The notes under the pieces: model-generated | Databases searched by the model: none | What the model was told of the DNA's origin: nothing | What the model saw: only the letters and a program-made list of their open reading frames with translations | In this document: one piece after another, positions 3,143 through 29,543 of the stretch | How positions within the stretch are numbered: position 1 is the first letter of the stretch | Layout: each line of letters begins with the position of its first letter | Program-made: the position numbers and the translations under genes | Source: Nitrospinae bacterium RIFCSPLOWO2_12_FULL_45_22 | GTDB taxonomy: Bacteria > 2-12-FULL-45-22 | Reading direction: 5' to 3' | Assembly (NCBI GenBank): GCA_001803565.1 | Contig: MHDQ01000011.1 | Location: 1 to 33,602 of the forward strand | DNA: 33,602 bases

Positions 3143-3289
3143 TTGACTTTGTCACATTTGCCATGCCATTCTGAGCGAAGCGAAGAATCTTGTTATCGAA
3201 AAGCTAAGACCCTTCGCGGAGTTTACCATGAGCACAGTGAAGGGCTCAGGGTGACAAACGTGGCATCCAAATTAATGTGACTAAGTCAA
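3143..3289. repeat. Intergenic inverted-repeat element E2 (ATTCTGAGCGAAGCGAAGAATCT core)
   Basis: Left tip TTGACTTTGTCACATT (3143-3158), right tip AATGTGACTAAGTCAA (3274-3289), 15/16 complementary. Core CCATTCTGAGCGAAGCGAAGAATCTT...AAGGGCTCAGGGTGACA. Confidence 0.8.
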
Positions 3290-4732
3290 AATAAGGTTTT
3301 TCCTAAAATATCCTTTCAATTTATACCAGAGCATCTGCAGGCCAGCCCGGGCCTGGCGTTTGAACTCAGACCAGGACTTGACCTTCTTCAGCCTTTGCCA
3401 GACATATTGTGGTCTTAGGTAAAAGGAGTTATAGGCACGGGTTAAGAGGGTTACCATCTCTTCACGAGAATAGAGATCAGAGGCTATGGGTACAGGTGCT
3501 TTATAGTCCGGATTTTGGGCAAATCTTTTCCATAAGTCTTCAACCCTTCCTTGTTCTACTGCTTCCTGATAGATTTTGGTAGCCGGATAAAAGACGGTAA
3601 TGGCGTACTGGACAAAATCTGGATGGAGTTTTTTTGCTAGCTCTATAGTCTTTTGCATCTGTTCCCTGGTTTCGCCGGGATAACCCAGCATAAAATCGGC
3701 CAGGGTAGCCAATTTATATTTTTTGGCCAGCTTGAATGCCTGATATACCTGCTCTAAAGTAATCTTTTTATTCATCGCCTGAAGTATCTCCGGAGAGGCA
3801 CTCTCCACGCCAAATTGTATCCGACTACAACCAGCCTCTTTCAGGTGCCGGATAACCTCTTCATCAATGGTATCCACCCGCGAGCGTATATCAAAGATAA
3901 TATCCAGTTTTCTCTCCATTATTTCCTGACATATTGCTATCACCCTCTCTTTATTGACCGTAAAGATCTCATCAAAAAAGAAAAATTCTTTAATGCCCAT
4001 AGCTACACAGGCCTGGATTTCGTCTATTATATTAGCAACCGACCGCAACCGGAGCTTACCATCAAAGGGTATATAGCAAAAGGTGCAACGATAAGGACAC
4101 CCCCGGCTGGCCATAAGGGTAGTACTGATATTGTCTTTCCCAATAAGGGAATGGTATTTATGAAAAGGGGTAAGGTAACGGGCCGGGAAAGGTAGGGCAT
4201 CTAAATCCTTTATCCAGTTGATCCGTGGTGAGACAATAATTTCTCCGTCTCGCTGAAAGACAATCCCGTCAAGGCATGCAGGATCACTATCCTGTTCCAG
4301 ACAATGGAGAAGGTTAACCACATTCTCTTCGCCTTCCCCCAGGATCACATAATCTATCTCAGGCAAAGCGGCGGTCTCCTGGGGATAGATCTGGGCATGG
4401 GGTCCACCAGCAATAACCAGGATATTGATATTCACCTCTTTTACCGCCTTAGCCGTCTTGTAAGCCATACTCAGGGCTACAGAAGAGGTATAGATCCCTA
4501 CCAGGTCAGGATTCTTCTGCCTAACTTCTTGCTGGATCGCCTCATAGCTCATCCCCTCCACATCGGCATCTAACACCTCTACCTTATGCGAAGAGTTTGC
4601 CTCTACTGCTGCAGCCACATAAAGTAACCCCAATGGGGGGTAAAAGCCAAACGCTATATCTTTAAGGAAGTCGGCTGCCACCAGAGAAAACATAGACCTT
4701 TCATAAGGCGGATTGAGCAGCAGCAGATACAT
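3281..4732 (-). CDS. B12-binding domain radical SAM protein
   Basis: N-terminal cobalamin-binding-like region (LLLLNPPYERS...YPPLGLLYVAAAVE), radical SAM motif MASRGCPYRCTFCYIPF, LGYPGET motif. Confidence 0.9.
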   Translation of the reverse strand: MYLLLLNPPYERSMFSLVAADFLKDIAFGFYPPLGLLYVAAAVEANSSHKVEVLDADVEGMSYEAIQQEVRQKNPDLVGIYTSSVALSMAYKTAKAVKEVNINILVIAGGPHAQIYPQETAALPEIDYVILGEGEENVVNLLHCLEQDSDPACLDGIVFQRDGEIIVSPRINWIKDLDALPFPARYLTPFHKYHSLIGKDNISTTLMASRGCPYRCTFCYIPFDGKLRLRSVANIIDEIQACVAMGIKEFFFFDEIFTVNKERVIAICQEIMERKLDIIFDIRSRVDTIDEEVIRHLKEAGCSRIQFGVESASPEILQAMNKKITLEQVYQAFKLAKKYKLATLADFMLGYPGETREQMQKTIELAKKLHPDFVQYAITVFYPATKIYQEAVEQGRVEDLWKRFAQNPDYKAPVPIASDLYSREEMVTLLTRAYNSFYLRPQYVWQRLKKVKSWSEFKRQARAGLQMLWYKLKGYFRKNLILT

Positions 4733-6860: not shown

Positions 6861-8270
6861 TTATTTTTGAATTAATAACCTAATCAGTTTAGTTAAATTG
6901 GCCCAGAAGATACGGGGCTGGAAAAAAAATTCTTTCAAGCCAGTAATAAAATATCCGGGCCTAAAATAAAACTTGCGGTAAGCTGTTCCCACTGAATTTT
7001 TCATTTCTTCAGCCGATAAGTTTTCATATTCAAAAATAGGCTGCATCGGCATAAAATCTGACCAATCTCTAGTTAATAATCTGTTTTCTCGGCTTAGAAT
7101 TTCATAAAATTTTGTCCCGGGGAAAGGGACTGCACTACTGAACTGAACGGTAGTTGGGTTTAATCTTTTGGCAAGATCAATAGTTTCCCGGATAGTCTCC
7201 TTTGTTTCCCCCGGCAGGCCAAAGACAAAGGTAGCATGTACATGAAAACCTATTTTTTTCATTAGTGAAATTGCTTGCTTTACCTCAGAGAGGGCATACC
7301 CTTTTTTTGTCTTATCTAAAATTTGTTGGCTACCGCTTTCTACCCCAACCTTCAGGAGATAACACCCTGCTTTTCTGAGCTTATGCAAAAAGTCTTCACC
7401 CCTATCATCCGCCCTGGCATAACACGCCCAATCCAGCTTCAATCCACTGTTAATCATCTCATCACAGACTTCTAAGGCATGTTTCTTGTCGGCAGTAAAG
7501 GTATCATCATTGAACAGTATACTTCTAAAGTTGTATTGCTGGATGATATTTTTTATTTCCTCTGTGATATTTTTGGCTGACCTTAGCCGATATTTCCTTC
7601 CGGTTAAGACTTGAGGCCAGTTACAGAATATGCACTTATAGGGACATCCCCGTCCACCCAAAATAAAGGTAAAAGGGTTTTTTAAAATAGGATCAAAATA
7701 TTTATAGTTAGGCAAGAGGTCCCGGGCTGGAAAAGGTAGGAGGTCCAGATTTTCCAAATATTCCCTGTTTTCATTTCTTATAATTACTCCATTATCAGCA
7801 CGGTAAGCAATACCTTTAGTGCCATTAGGCCCTTTAGAAATATATTCTTCTAAAGAAATTTCATACTCCCCTATTACCACAGCATCGAGGGGTTCTTGGG
7901 TTAAAGACTCTTCTGGTAAGGCTGACACATGGGGCCCTAAAAAGATTATTTTAGCTGCCCCTAACCTAGACTTTATCAGTTTGCTAACCTCGGCATCGTT
8001 ATAAAACGAAGGGGTAGAGGTTTCAAAGACTATACATTGTGGGTTTATGGCTGTTATTTCCTCCAGGAAAGCATCAACCGCCTTCCTCTCTACTACGGGA
8101 TCAAGCAGGAATATTTCGTGCCCTTTTGATCGGAGATAAGAAGCCGCATAAGCTAACAACAACGGGGGATGCAGAACCGGCGTAGCATAATTAAAGGTAG
8201 GGAACCGAATCGGCCGATTAAAGCTTCCTATGTTTTTAAATGTTGGAGGATTAGCCAATAAAACTTTCAT
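6861..8270 (-). CDS. B12-binding domain radical SAM protein (paralogue of 3281..4732)
   Basis: MKVLLANPPTFKN...HPPLLLAYAASYLRSKGHEIFLLDP...LGGRGCPYKCIFCNWPQ...FGLPGET. Confidence 0.9.
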   Translation of the reverse strand: MKVLLANPPTFKNIGSFNRPIRFPTFNYATPVLHPPLLLAYAASYLRSKGHEIFLLDPVVERKAVDAFLEEITAINPQCIVFETSTPSFYNDAEVSKLIKSRLGAAKIIFLGPHVSALPEESLTQEPLDAVVIGEYEISLEEYISKGPNGTKGIAYRADNGVIIRNENREYLENLDLLPFPARDLLPNYKYFDPILKNPFTFILGGRGCPYKCIFCNWPQVLTGRKYRLRSAKNITEEIKNIIQQYNFRSILFNDDTFTADKKHALEVCDEMINSGLKLDWACYARADDRGEDFLHKLRKAGCYLLKVGVESGSQQILDKTKKGYALSEVKQAISLMKKIGFHVHATFVFGLPGETKETIRETIDLAKRLNPTTVQFSSAVPFPGTKFYEILSRENRLLTRDWSDFMPMQPIFEYENLSAEEMKNSVGTAYRKFYFRPGYFITGLKEFFFQPRIFWANLTKLIRLLIQK

Positions 8271-25394: not shown

Positions 25395-25517
25395 TAAGCG
25401 TTCAGCAATCAGCAAAATTAGGTGATTACGTGATTAGGTCAGGGGGTCATTACGTAAACCGATAACTCAATAACCTAATGACCCAATGACCTAATAACCG
25501 TTGTTGCTGAAAGCTTA
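25395..25517. repeat. Inverted-repeat element E6 filling the ompH-lpxD gap
   Basis: TAAGCGTTCAGCAA (25395-25408)/TTGCTGAAAGCTTA (25504-25517), 13/14 complementary; inner GGTCATTACGT...AATAACCTAATGACCCAATGACCTAATAACC. Confidence 0.8.
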
Positions 25518-25524
25518 TCAGATT

Positions 25525-26547
25525 ATGAAATTAAAAGAGATAGCAGATTTTTTGGCGGGAGAGCTAAGAGGGCATCCAGAGATAGAGATTTCTAGTGTTG
25601 CCAGTATCACGGAAGCCCAATCCCACCAAATAACCTTTCTTGCCCATAAGAAACACCTTGATCGCCTCTCCCATTGCCAGGCCGGTGCCATTATTGTACC
25701 AGACGGGATAGAACCAGCACTGCCCCATATAAAAGTAAAAAATCCTTATTTAGCCTTTGCCTATCTCCTGGAGCTTTTCTATCCAAAACCCAGGCCAATG
25801 CCGGAGATAAGCCCCTTGTCTTATATCGGACCAAATACTCTGATAGGGGAAGGGGTTACTGTCTTTCCCTATGTCTATATCGGGGAAGAGGCAGTTATTG
25901 GACATCACTCCATCATTTATCCTGGCGCCTTTCTCGGAGACCGGGTAAAGATAGGATCGGAAACCACCATCTATGCCAACGTAAGTATCTATGATGCTGT
26001 GTCTATAGGTAATAATGTAATCATCCATAGTGGGGCAGTTATAGGCAGCGATGGTTTTGGCTTTGTAAAAAAAGACGATGGCACCCACCATAAAATTCCC
26101 CAGATAGGTAGCGTAGTCATTGAAGACTGGGTAGAGATTGGGGCTAATGTCTGTATAGATCGGGCCAATCTGGGGCAGACGGTCATCAAGTCAGGCACAA
26201 AATTCGATAACCTGAGTCATATTGCCCATAATGTAGTAATTGGTGAAAACTCTATCATTGTTGCCCAGGTAGGTATCTCAGGTAGCTGTACTATCGGTAA
26301 GAACGTAACCCTGGCCGGTCAGGTAGGTATGGTAGACCACATAAATATTGGCGATAACGCCATCGTCATAGCCCAGTCTGGTTTAACCCAGGATGTAGAG
26401 GCTAATGCTGTAGTCTCAGGCTCACCCGCTGTACCTCACCCGGTATGGCTTAAGATACATGCCAGTCTCCCCAAATTGCCAGAATTGATCAGAACTATCC
26501 GGCAATTAGAGAAGCGGATAGAAGCACTAGAAGGCGAGAGGAGGTGA
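25525..26547 (+). CDS. lpxD: UDP-3-O-acylglucosamine N-acyltransferase (ORF track start TTG 25501 lies in E6)
   Basis: MKLKEIADFLAGELRGHPEIEISSVASITEAQSHQITFLAHKK, hexapeptide repeats, GSDGFGFVKKDDGTHHKIPQIGSVVIED, SGLTQDVEANAVVSGSPAVPH. Confidence 0.95.
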   Translation: MKLKEIADFLAGELRGHPEIEISSVASITEAQSHQITFLAHKKHLDRLSHCQAGAIIVPDGIEPALPHIKVKNPYLAFAYLLELFYPKPRPMPEISPLSYIGPNTLIGEGVTVFPYVYIGEEAVIGHHSIIYPGAFLGDRVKIGSETTIYANVSIYDAVSIGNNVIIHSGAVIGSDGFGFVKKDDGTHHKIPQIGSVVIEDWVEIGANVCIDRANLGQTVIKSGTKFDNLSHIAHNVVIGENSIIVAQVGISGSCTIGKNVTLAGQVGMVDHINIGDNAIVIAQSGLTQDVEANAVVSGSPAVPHPVWLKIHASLPKLPELIRTIRQLEKRIEALEGERR

Positions 26548-26553
26548 GGGAAA

Positions 26554-26616
26554 ATGAAGATTAAGAAGGTAGTTAAAACTTCCAATGGCCTTTGTAAGTG
26601 CAAGAGCTCCTGTTAA
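26554..26616 (+). CDS. 20-aa Cys-rich ORF, candidate RiPP precursor: MKIKKVVKTSNGLCKCKSSC
   Basis: ATG 26554 to TAA 26614-26616; AGGAGGTGA at 26538-26546, 7 nt before ATG, overlapping the lpxD stop; C-terminal CKCKSSC; upstream of a radical SAM/SPASM gene. Confidence 0.65.
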   Translation: MKIKKVVKTSNGLCKCKSSC

Positions 26617-26620
26617 CTTA

Positions 26621-26714
26621 GCCACAGAGGGCACAGAGAATAAATTTAGAGTGTTTCGCCACTAATGCTCCTCTTATTTTCTATCATCTCTGTGCTCTCT
26701 GGGTACTCTGTGGC
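26621..26714. repeat. Inverted-repeat element E7 (GCCACAGAG type) between the 20-aa ORF and the Cys-rich/rSAM genes
   Basis: GCCACAGAGGGCACAGAGA ... TCTCTGTGCTCTCTGGGTACTCTGTGGC. Confidence 0.8.
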
Positions 26715-26761
26715 AAGAAATTAAAGGTATTTCTACAAAAGAATAATTAATAAAGTTTCCT

Positions 26762-27136
26762 ATGCGAGCGCAGAAAAAGCTGAGAAATTTGGTCTGCCAG
26801 AGATATTGCTTCTTTTTTAAACCTGATAGAAAAGAGGATTTGGCCTGTGAAGGCATTCTCTTCCTGGAAAAAGGTTTAGAGAAGGGGTTACTAAGCTGGG
26901 AACTCCTATCCGCCCTATATTATCCTATCCCATTCCTTCAAGAATACCCTTTTGACTCGATACTAAAGACAAGATTATGTCACTTATGTCCATTCTTACC
27001 GGATGGGTGTGATTTTAGAGATCAGACCTCATTGACCAGCGCCCCTCCTTGTGGTGGATATTTGATCCTACAAAATTTAATACAACTGGGTTTGCTTGAC
27101 CCCGCCCTACTTATGCTCATCAGGCCCACAGAGTAA
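26762..27136 (+). CDS. Cys-rich 124-aa protein of unknown family, coupled to the radical SAM gene
   Basis: LVCQRYCFFFKPDRKEDLACEG...LCHLCPFLPDGCDFRDQTSLTSAPPCGGYLILQNL; overlaps the next gene by 1 nt (TAATG). Confidence 0.8.
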   Translation: MRAQKKLRNLVCQRYCFFFKPDRKEDLACEGILFLEKGLEKGLLSWELLSALYYPIPFLQEYPFDSILKTRLCHLCPFLPDGCDFRDQTSLTSAPPCGGYLILQNLIQLGLLDPALLMLIRPTE

Positions 27137-28284
27137 TGGATGGGTTTATCCGTATAGCAGATCATTGCACCCTGAAACAACTGGAAGATTTCTATCTGTA
27201 TGATATACGGGCGGATGATTTATACCAGTTGGATCAGGAAGCAGCAAAATTCTTACTACTTTGTGACGGGACTAAACGGCTTGCAGAATTAAAGGCCGAT
27301 CCCGAATTTATCAGATATTGTCTGGAAAATGGGTTAATAGAACTCCATCCTGCTCCTCAGCCTAAAACTATAAGAATTTCCCCATCGCCTAAGCCTTCAT
27401 TACGTTATCTAGAACTGCAACTAACCCATCGCTGTAATCTCCAGTGTCACCATTGCTATTTAGGAGAGTCTCGCCCTATAGATTTAGATTTTAGTTTAGC
27501 AGTGAATATTATGGAAGAATTTCAGACTATCCAGGGCCTACGGATTATCCTCTCTGGCGGTGAGCCGCTCCTCTATCCCCGTTTCCGGGAACTTAACGAA
27601 CTATTACCAGCTTATGCCTTCCGGAAAGTCCTCCTGAGTAATGCCACCCTACTAACACCTGAGCTGACCCGAAGTTTAAAGGTAGATGAAGTGCAGATAA
27701 GCTTAGATGGTCTGGAGAGAGGGCATGAAGCCCTCAGGGGTTACGGGACATATAGTCGCACTATGAGGGGGTTGCAAGCCGTCCGATCTGCCGGCCTAGA
27801 CCTTTCTGTAGCTACTATGCTCCATCTTTATAATCTGAATGAAATCCCAGCGCTAGCTAAAAAGTTAACTACCTATGGTATAAAAGAATGGGGTATTGAT
27901 TTGCCCGTTGTTAAGGGGAGATTAGAACATAGCAAAGACCTAGCCTTGTCGGCCGAACAAGCGGCCCCTTATCTTAAATATCGCTTTGGGGAGAGTTATC
28001 ATAGCGATGCCGGGGGATACGCTTGTGGATATCATCTTTGTACCATTATGCCCGATAGCCGTGTGTGCCAATGCGGTTTTTATATGGATCGAGCTGTAGG
28101 CCATATCGAGGAAGGGTTAGCGAATTGCTGGCAGCGCATTGACCATATATCCTCAGCAAACCTGGAGTGTAAAGATTGTTCCTTTTTACCGGAATGTCGG
28201 AGTGGATGTCGCTACCGGGCTCCTAGCCCCAGCGGTCCCGACCCTCTGATGTGTGCCTTTTTTGGGGTAAGGAGTGATATTTAG
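27136..28284 (+). CDS. Radical SAM/SPASM protein with PqqD/RRE-like N-terminus (putative peptide maturase)
   Basis: N-terminus FYLYDIRADDLYQLDQEAAKFLLLCDGTKRLAELKADPEFIRYCLENGLIEL (PqqD-like); LTHRCNLQCHHCY; SGGEPL; SPASM-like CGYHLCTIMPDSRVCQCGFY...CKDCSFLPECRSGCRYR...C. Confidence 0.9.
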   Translation: MDGFIRIADHCTLKQLEDFYLYDIRADDLYQLDQEAAKFLLLCDGTKRLAELKADPEFIRYCLENGLIELHPAPQPKTIRISPSPKPSLRYLELQLTHRCNLQCHHCYLGESRPIDLDFSLAVNIMEEFQTIQGLRIILSGGEPLLYPRFRELNELLPAYAFRKVLLSNATLLTPELTRSLKVDEVQISLDGLERGHEALRGYGTYSRTMRGLQAVRSAGLDLSVATMLHLYNLNEIPALAKKLTTYGIKEWGIDLPVVKGRLEHSKDLALSAEQAAPYLKYRFGESYHSDAGGYACGYHLCTIMPDSRVCQCGFYMDRAVGHIEEGLANCWQRIDHISSANLECKDCSFLPECRSGCRYRAPSPSGPDPLMCAFFGVRSDI

Positions 28285-29543
28285 CTAGCCATATTGTTTC
28301 GGTAAAGATTGCTCTCCAAGAGTAGGGACTTCAATACTCTTCGTCTGGCTGTCCTCCTCTGATTCTCTTTATACCGGGGATAAGATTTTTGATACTGCTC
28401 ATAGGCTTCTCTATCCATTATCTGGATCTCGAAGGGATAGTAAAAAGATATATAGCGGCTCATCCGGGACAGGGAACCTTTAATATTCTGGATAACCTTT
28501 TTGTGGTAAGAAATTAGCTCCCGATGGATGGGGGGAGCTGCATCTACTTTCTGCACTAAATCTTTATGCTGCTTTTCTAACTCCTGGAGGAGTTTGAACT
28601 GGGTCTGATACTCCGGATTTTCGATCTCTATCTTTTCGCGGCTGGTGAAATTCATAGCTCGATAGTCAACAGAATGCGGGTTATCATTCTTGCTCTTATC
28701 CACTATTACTACTCCTTCTTCTAGCAGGCGAAAATAACCCCCAAGTTGCTTCTTGTCCCCCCGCTTTAAGACTTTTTCTAGCTCATCTAAAGGCATTAAG
28801 GTATTCTTGGTCCTCCCCGGAATGCTATTAGGATAGGAGAGGATATTTTCCTTGACTAAAAAATTGACAATTTTTAGGGCATCCAGCTTGGATTTTGCTA
28901 TAAGCCTCACCCCCACTACATCGGTTATTTCGGTGACGATATTCTCTCTTTTATGCAGGAGCTTCACGATGATACTCTCTCGTTCCTTGATCCTCTTAAG
29001 GTCAAGGGCCACCAGGGGGATAATATCATTCCCCTTTTGCCCTAGGTACATCTGTCCGCCCTCATCATACTGGATATATCTTTTTATCTTGGCCAGGATC
29101 TTTTCTTGAATATGGTGGATGTATTTAAAGCGGATATCGTCTTCTAGATGATAAATGGTATGCATAACCCGCAATAGGGCACAAGCCCATTTCTGCTGTA
29201 AATTGCCATCTTTCCTACGCGGGGGAGAGGTAGCCATTTGTAATAGGGAATAGATATCTGTCTGGGGGGAGCGGATCTCTTCTGGAATTTCCAGTTCCTC
29301 GTCTTTTAACAAGTGGGTTTGGATGAATTCTATAGCCTCTGCCTTAATCCTATCAACCTTTGCTAGATCCTCTAACGAAATGCCGTATGAACAGAGGAAA
29401 TTTTCTATTGCTTCCCGGCTCCCTCCCTCTAACCGGAGCCTCTCTAAATCAATAGGTGATTCTCCTTTTAAGATAGGGCCAATGTTGCGTAAGAGCCGGT
29501 AGAGTTCGTGCTTAGTTACGGCTGGATATGCCTCTTTCTTCAT
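28281..29543 (-). CDS. Uncharacterised protein with divergent RelA/SpoT-like segment (TIGR04552/TIGR04562-like)
   Basis: NIVTEITDVVGVRLIAKSKLDALKIVNFLVKENIL...DNPHSVDYRAMNFTS...YPFEIQIMDREAYEQYQ, cf. RelA/SpoT D-x-x-G-x-R, YR(S/A)x(H/N), EIQI motifs. Confidence 0.6.
   Translation of the reverse strand: MKKEAYPAVTKHELYRLLRNIGPILKGESPIDLERLRLEGGSREAIENFLCSYGISLEDLAKVDRIKAEAIEFIQTHLLKDEELEIPEEIRSPQTDIYSLLQMATSPPRRKDGNLQQKWACALLRVMHTIYHLEDDIRFKYIHHIQEKILAKIKRYIQYDEGGQMYLGQKGNDIIPLVALDLKRIKERESIIVKLLHKRENIVTEITDVVGVRLIAKSKLDALKIVNFLVKENILSYPNSIPGRTKNTLMPLDELEKVLKRGDKKQLGGYFRLLEEGVVIVDKSKNDNPHSVDYRAMNFTSREKIEIENPEYQTQFKLLQELEKQHKDLVQKVDAAPPIHRELISYHKKVIQNIKGSLSRMSRYISFYYPFEIQIMDREAYEQYQKSYPRYKENQRRTARRRVLKSLLLESNLYRNNMAS

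Follow-up and report, generated by a model that had tools for sequence, protein, structure and literature searches.

A 20-residue cysteine peptide that co-occurs with a radical SAM/SPASM protein in diverse genomes

Bufferins are copper-binding RiPPs modified by MNIO (DUF692) enzymes, and MNIO precursors can be long, the majority having a Sec signal peptide (PMC12452194). CruR is a copper-responsive uORF in Bordetella; it encodes a 145-aa DUF2946 protein bearing the motifs CXXC and RAPP and is systematically first in its operon (PMC9426467). The locus examined here lies in a window (the whole stretch of DNA that was analysed) of 33,602 nucleotides and encodes a 20-aa Cys peptide, a Cys-rich protein and a radical SAM/SPASM protein (rSAM). 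It resembles the sactipeptide and ranthipeptide systems (SkfB; SCIFF/CteB) in combining a SPASM radical SAM protein with a Cys-rich candidate precursor, but that precursor is 20 aa long with a C-K-C-x3-C motif, export and immunity genes are absent, and cross-links are only proposed. SCIFF/ranthipeptide precursors hold six Cys in ~45 residues and form Cys thioethers, whereas the 20-residue peptides described here have three Cys and, in rare cases, four. With PQQ (PqqA/PqqD/PqqE) and mycofactocin (MftA/MftB/MftC) the locus shares a very short precursor, a SPASM rSAM, a small binding domain (here a candidate) and a seemingly housekeeping distribution. It differs from both in having Cys and Lys in place of Glu/Tyr or Val/Tyr, and in the absence of cofactor-processing genes.

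The peptide gene and its relatives

The peptide MKIKKVVKTSNGLCKCKSSC, an ORF read from the window at 26554..26616 on the forward strand, is the putative substrate of the rSAM. Its gene lies directly 3’ of lpxD (25501-26547), and its Shine-Dalgarno sequence, AGGAGGTGA (26539..26547, forward strand), overlaps the lpxD stop codon; the peptide gene therefore looks co-transcribed with lpxD, the single transcript being predicted from coordinates. A sequence-only reading of this DNA had described the Shine-Dalgarno as a strong match with 7-nt spacing. The match is strong and is the sole exact copy in the whole window, where 0.3 would be expected, but the spacer to the ATG is 6 nt, not 7. Comparably strong Shine-Dalgarno sequences were found 5’ of nearly all relatives of the peptide. 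The ORFs proposed in that reading for the 20-aa peptide, the Cys-rich protein and the rSAM are all present where it placed them, and the TAATG coupling of the 124-aa Cys-rich ORF to the rSAM ORF was confirmed as a one-base overlap. The region between the peptide gene and the Cys-rich gene holds an inverted repeat of the CCACAGAG..CACAGAG type (26621-26714), which looks like a dispersed intergenic palindrome.

Using a motif that fixed CKC...C near the end and permitted 20-21 aa, we collected 66 distinct peptide coding sequences from the loci, every one of which encodes 20 aa, with the consensus M-K-I-K/R-K-V-x-K-x5-C-K-C-x-S-S-C. A looser C-terminal motif, C.C(2-4)C, applied near the rSAM recovered the same peptides and practically no others, and wider scans added one 19-aa variant and a few other variants outside this set. 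K5, C14, K15, C16 and C20 are invariant among the 66 peptides, and conservation spans the full length, including the N-terminal half, which holds no metal ligands. The peptides lack a signal peptide. Codons at the invariant residues vary (TGC or TGT for Cys, AAA or AAG for Lys), Ser19 draws on both TCN and AGY codons, and each of the three stop codons is used; the third-position variation at invariant residues, together with the use of all three stops, therefore indicates selection on the protein. A conserved regulatory DNA or RNA element was ruled out by the silent codon variation. With 66 relatives and free third positions, the peptide is real and conserved at the protein level, as had been supposed. 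The sequence-only reading was to be given up if orthologous rSAM genes lacked an adjacent C-terminal Cys peptide; that search was run, the peptide was found, and the claim survives.

A terminator-like hairpin, scored with a home-made detector, was present within 130 nt 3’ of the peptide in 17/66 cases, compared to 3/194 control stretches. Searches of the Pfam and NCBIfam libraries gave no family for any of five peptides. We found no paper naming the peptide in a search that did not extend to subscription journals (the JACS atlas of rSAM RiPPs among them), and an earlier mention is possible.

The radical SAM/SPASM protein and its pairing with the peptide

The rSAM (27136..28284, forward strand; 382 aa), a putative peptide maturase, matched PF04055 with E=1.2e-17, and the same family was matched by 16/16 members; the SPASM family PF13186 was matched weakly, by 6/16. 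The CX3CX2C motif and seven SPASM Cys are invariant in 16 orthologues, and these features, with the GGE motif and the seven-Cys SPASM region, place the protein among radical SAM/SPASM proteins. Its best NCBIfam score was 86.6 bits; the families among the matches listed have cut-offs of 265-725, and within those matches none of the named rSAM-peptide systems (SbtM, GeoRSP, ACGX, SynChlorMet, mycofactocin, PqqE and others) was reached. The earlier impression that no named class fits this cassette holds, with the rSAM under the curated NCBIfam cut-offs listed and the peptides without a family. The closest solved structures were SkfB and PqqE by sequence, and SkfB, anSME and SuiB by fold, making SkfB the best match in both respects; the structural neighbours are mostly peptide- or protein-modifying enzymes. 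In the fold model, for which distant rSAMs from viral contigs were used only to deepen the alignment, the radical SAM core was confident and the N-terminal domain was of low confidence. This N-terminus had been read as PqqD/RRE-like, by eye a plausible candidate assignment: PqqD (PF05402) reached only E=0.14, in 1/16 members, and a PDB profile search gave nothing significant. Whole-chain fold matches to SkfB and SuiB cover the entire rSAM and do not isolate its N-terminal ~75 residues.

The rSAM is single-copy in the source genome, where the remaining matches are distant. Scanning genome contigs with the window rSAM alone gave only paralogues (~27-30% identity); true orthologues came from a search across genomes, and 97 diverse genomes held two, at 42-44% identity, at loci L009 and L010, each of which also encodes the peptide. 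The window falls together with G096, G142, G277 and G266 in the rSAM tree (support 92), and these lineages and the window share the gene order peptide, Cys-rich, rSAM. At its 3’ end the rSAM gene is convergent, with a 4-base overlap, with a gene for a 420-aa TIGR04552/TIGR04562-type protein that has a weak RelA/SpoT-like stretch (28281-29543, reverse strand). Elsewhere in the window, ORFs at 3281-4732 and 6861-8270 (both reverse strand) resemble, by eye, B12-binding-type radical SAM proteins and lie near glycosyltransferase-like ORFs.

The sequence-only reading had tied the peptide to the rSAM, and we surveyed 386 diverse genomes for both, with a profile of three rSAMs (E<=1e-60) and a DNA pattern for the peptide (K5-[VI/M]-x7-C-K-C-x3-C-stop). 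The rSAM profile matched 17/386 genomes and the peptide pattern 18, namely all 17 rSAM genomes and G174, whose match was dismissed for its in-frame stops. The Fisher probability of this co-occurrence is 5e-30, a value in which the relatedness of the genomes overstates independence. In a second survey, of 246 genomes from the phylum of G262, 80 had the rSAM, 76 the peptide and 75 both (Fisher 6e-56, kinship ignored). A reversed-pattern control gave 1 match per survey. Five genomes in this phylum had the rSAM only: G503, G544 and G626 have an rSAM-adjacent peptide that departs from the pattern at position 5 or 6, and the rSAM of G427 and G432 sits at a contig end, both genomes being pattern-negative for the peptide. 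The sole peptide-only genome, G622, has two peptides of a paralogous type, described below. The rSAM reaches about one third of the genomes sampled from this phylum (80/246) and 48/116 genera, and at least seven families, f126, f207, f265, f273, f277, f279 and f281, each contain double-positive and double-negative genomes. The pairing was kept even where the two genes are ~840 kb apart (G245) or on different contigs (G127). Found in 17/17 and 75/80 carrier genomes, spread over many unrelated bacterial lineages, the peptide is functionally tied to the rSAM; the co-occurrence does not by itself show that the peptide is the substrate of the enzyme. The genetic side of a RiPP, a precursor gene linked to an enzyme of modifying type, is present.

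The third member, the Cys-rich accessory protein (26762..27136, forward strand; 124 aa), has the core C-x2-C-x-F-Y ... CDF ... PCGG. Homologues of it are encoded next to the rSAM in many lineages, in some cases on the opposite strand. They include a short form, ~78 aa long and reduced to the C-x2-C-x-F-Y-K ... (A/E)CG core, and in one case the domain is naturally fused to the rSAM (L009/L033; L033:910-2343). No Pfam or NCBIfam family was found for the window protein, and the accessory proteins tested gave none of note. A single-sequence fold reached a pLDDT of 42.6, too low to use. The three parts thus form a recurring cassette, as had been proposed, in which the Cys-rich protein recurs as the third member, once fused.

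Gene neighbourhoods and the CKCH branch

The peptide-first order noted in the window is not general: in most lineages the peptide is 3’ of the rSAM or elsewhere in the genome (neighbourhood counts are based on scripted ORF calling). The peptide ORF precedes the operon in the window clade and at most loci of the CKCH type described below, and at L009 MKVKKVVKKSSGLCKCGSSC lies directly 5’ of the fused Cys-rich/rSAM protein. At L010, MKIRKIAKSASITCKCKSSC lies directly 3’ of the rSAM and is followed by a terminator-like hairpin, and two more members of that phylum have the same peptide-after-rSAM arrangement. Many other lineages have the peptide gene at the end, followed either by a terminator (as at L034 and L035) or by unrelated genes. 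In the neighbourhoods examined, no transporter, protease or immunity gene recurred beside the rSAM, which argues for an internal role, and a bacteriocin was ruled out, there being no export or immunity genes; no MNIO (DUF692) gene recurred in them either. In one small phylum, genes for DsrE-like, IscS, IscU and TusA proteins lie directly 5’ of the rSAM-peptide pair in 3/3 carriers (L034:6031-8325, L035, L036). In G127, a rubrerythrin gene adjoins the Cys-rich gene (L039:6985-7455), and the distant peptide gene (L208) has SOD/nitroreductase-like and rubrerythrin-like ORFs nearby; these neighbours hint at a possible link to oxidative stress.

The peptide pattern also recovers paralogous peptides in which residue 17 is His (CKCH), and one CKCY. 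A heavy-metal P-type ATPase lies near the CKCH-type peptide at 14/16 fetched loci, and its CPC or CPH motif is intact at 12 of the 14; such an ATPase was found at 0/16 control loci, where a CKCK-type peptide lies apart from the rSAM (Fisher 5e-7); control locus L204 has a P-type ATPase without a CPC/CPH motif. CKCK-type peptides beside the rSAM are not near metal genes. The ATPase often comes with metal domains of the YHS, HMBD or HMA kind, and often with genes for a YHS-FAD oxidoreductase and a secreted Met-rich protein. The last is small and, at L182:6093-6656, L190:5201-5842 and similar loci, lies directly after the CKCH peptide and before the ATPase; one member searched had no Pfam family. 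The CPC-ALGLAT sequence is a hallmark of Cu(I) pumps, and copper is therefore, on sequence grounds, the likely metal of the CKCH branch. The sequence-only reading had offered thioether formation or a metal-binding product, and the CKCH peptides at ATPase loci favour the second. In G520 and G584 the peptides that accompany the rSAM are all of the CKCH type, which suggests that the rSAM serves this branch too. In G622 (93% complete), both CKCH peptides lie in one heavy-metal ATPase locus (L186:1875-1937, 3602-3664) and the orthologous rSAM was not found, so the branch may be independent of the rSAM.

Proposed role and related systems

The reading we favour, and consider somewhat better than evenly probable, is a two-to-three-gene system in which the rSAM modifies the 20-aa peptide to give an intracellular thiolate ligand for a soft metal, suspected to be copper. 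The stand-alone peptide would be translated from its strong ribosome-binding site, and the rSAM, through its N-terminal ~75-residue domain (possibly an RRE), would recognise the basic N-terminal half (I3, K5, V6, K8), with the Cys-rich protein joining recognition or modification in many lineages. We infer from this a leader/core division in which the C-terminal C-K-C-x-S-S-C segment, the putative metal-binding part, would be modified. Since the solved structure closest to the rSAM is that of a sactisynthase, SkfB, the modification would most likely be thioether cross-linking via Cys sulfur. The product would be retained in the cell as a small thiolate ligand or carrier, and the CKCK branch may handle the same metal, another metal, or an Fe-S/sulfur pool.

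Three conserved Cys, with a His in the CKCH peptides, would be enough for metal binding, and the peptide could act unmodified as a mini-metallothionein or metallochaperone that the rSAM product needs, or as a metal or sulfur donor. The heavy-metal ATPase loci, the CKCH peptides of G622 without an rSAM and the IscS/IscU/TusA neighbours in one phylum would suit such a role, which we nevertheless regard as unlikely, given the near one-to-one pairing with a SPASM enzyme resembling maturases and the conservation of an N-terminal half devoid of metal ligands. Less likely again is a precursor of a small redox cofactor, made as PQQ is from PqqA or mycofactocin from MftA. The peptide’s short fixed length, usual single copy, wide and vertical-looking distribution and lack of export and immunity genes are consistent with this, as is the place of PqqE among the solved structures closest to the rSAM; however, the conserved Tyr, Glu or Val-Tyr of PqqA and MftA is absent, conservation centres on Cys and Lys, and neither a protease nor an oxidoreductase recurred as a partner in the neighbourhoods examined.

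The position of the peptide before the operon in the window clade and at most CKCH loci, as well as a terminator-like hairpin between peptide and rSAM at L033, would fit a regulatory leader (uORF) that senses metal or cysteine through the translation of its Cys/Lys codons and controls the genes that follow it. We consider this quite improbable: in many lineages the peptide comes last, no conserved downstream target was seen, the pairing is kept across hundreds of kb, and residues are conserved along the whole length with free codons. Open reading frames of 20 aa are frequent in any sequence, but a chance ORF beside an unrelated radical SAM gene has almost no probability left and is refuted by the pairing (p ~5e-30 and 6e-56), the single control match per survey and the silent codon changes at invariant residues.

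The peptide-modification system we favour looks undescribed and is probably for metal handling. The peptide is under normal gene-calling limits and would be missed by most annotations, and a 20-residue putative substrate is readily synthesised, making the rSAM chemistry directly testable. CruR is the closest regulatory alternative: both have a short Cys-containing ORF, with copper genes downstream in the CKCH branch, but the peptide here is 20 aa, is often last or alone rather than first in its operon (the CKCH branch alone would fit) and is tied to the rSAM. By analogy, bufferins would be the closest known system in proposed role. They too have peptides with a conserved Cys motif, served by a modifying enzyme and a partner protein, are widespread and are linked to copper (here a genomic hint, in the CKCH branch), but their enzyme is an MNIO rather than a radical SAM/SPASM protein, and the precursors here are 20 aa without a signal peptide. 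A tentative extension, to which we give rather less than even credence, is a widespread and so far unannotated class of 20-residue metallopeptides made by radical SAM enzymes, among the smallest stand-alone gene products conserved in bacteria, that would serve as intracellular ligands for copper or soft metals in CKCK (rSAM) and CKCH (ATPase) branches, as a radical-SAM counterpart of bufferins. If the product binds copper, radical SAM would be a second route, beside MNIO, to peptide metal buffers.
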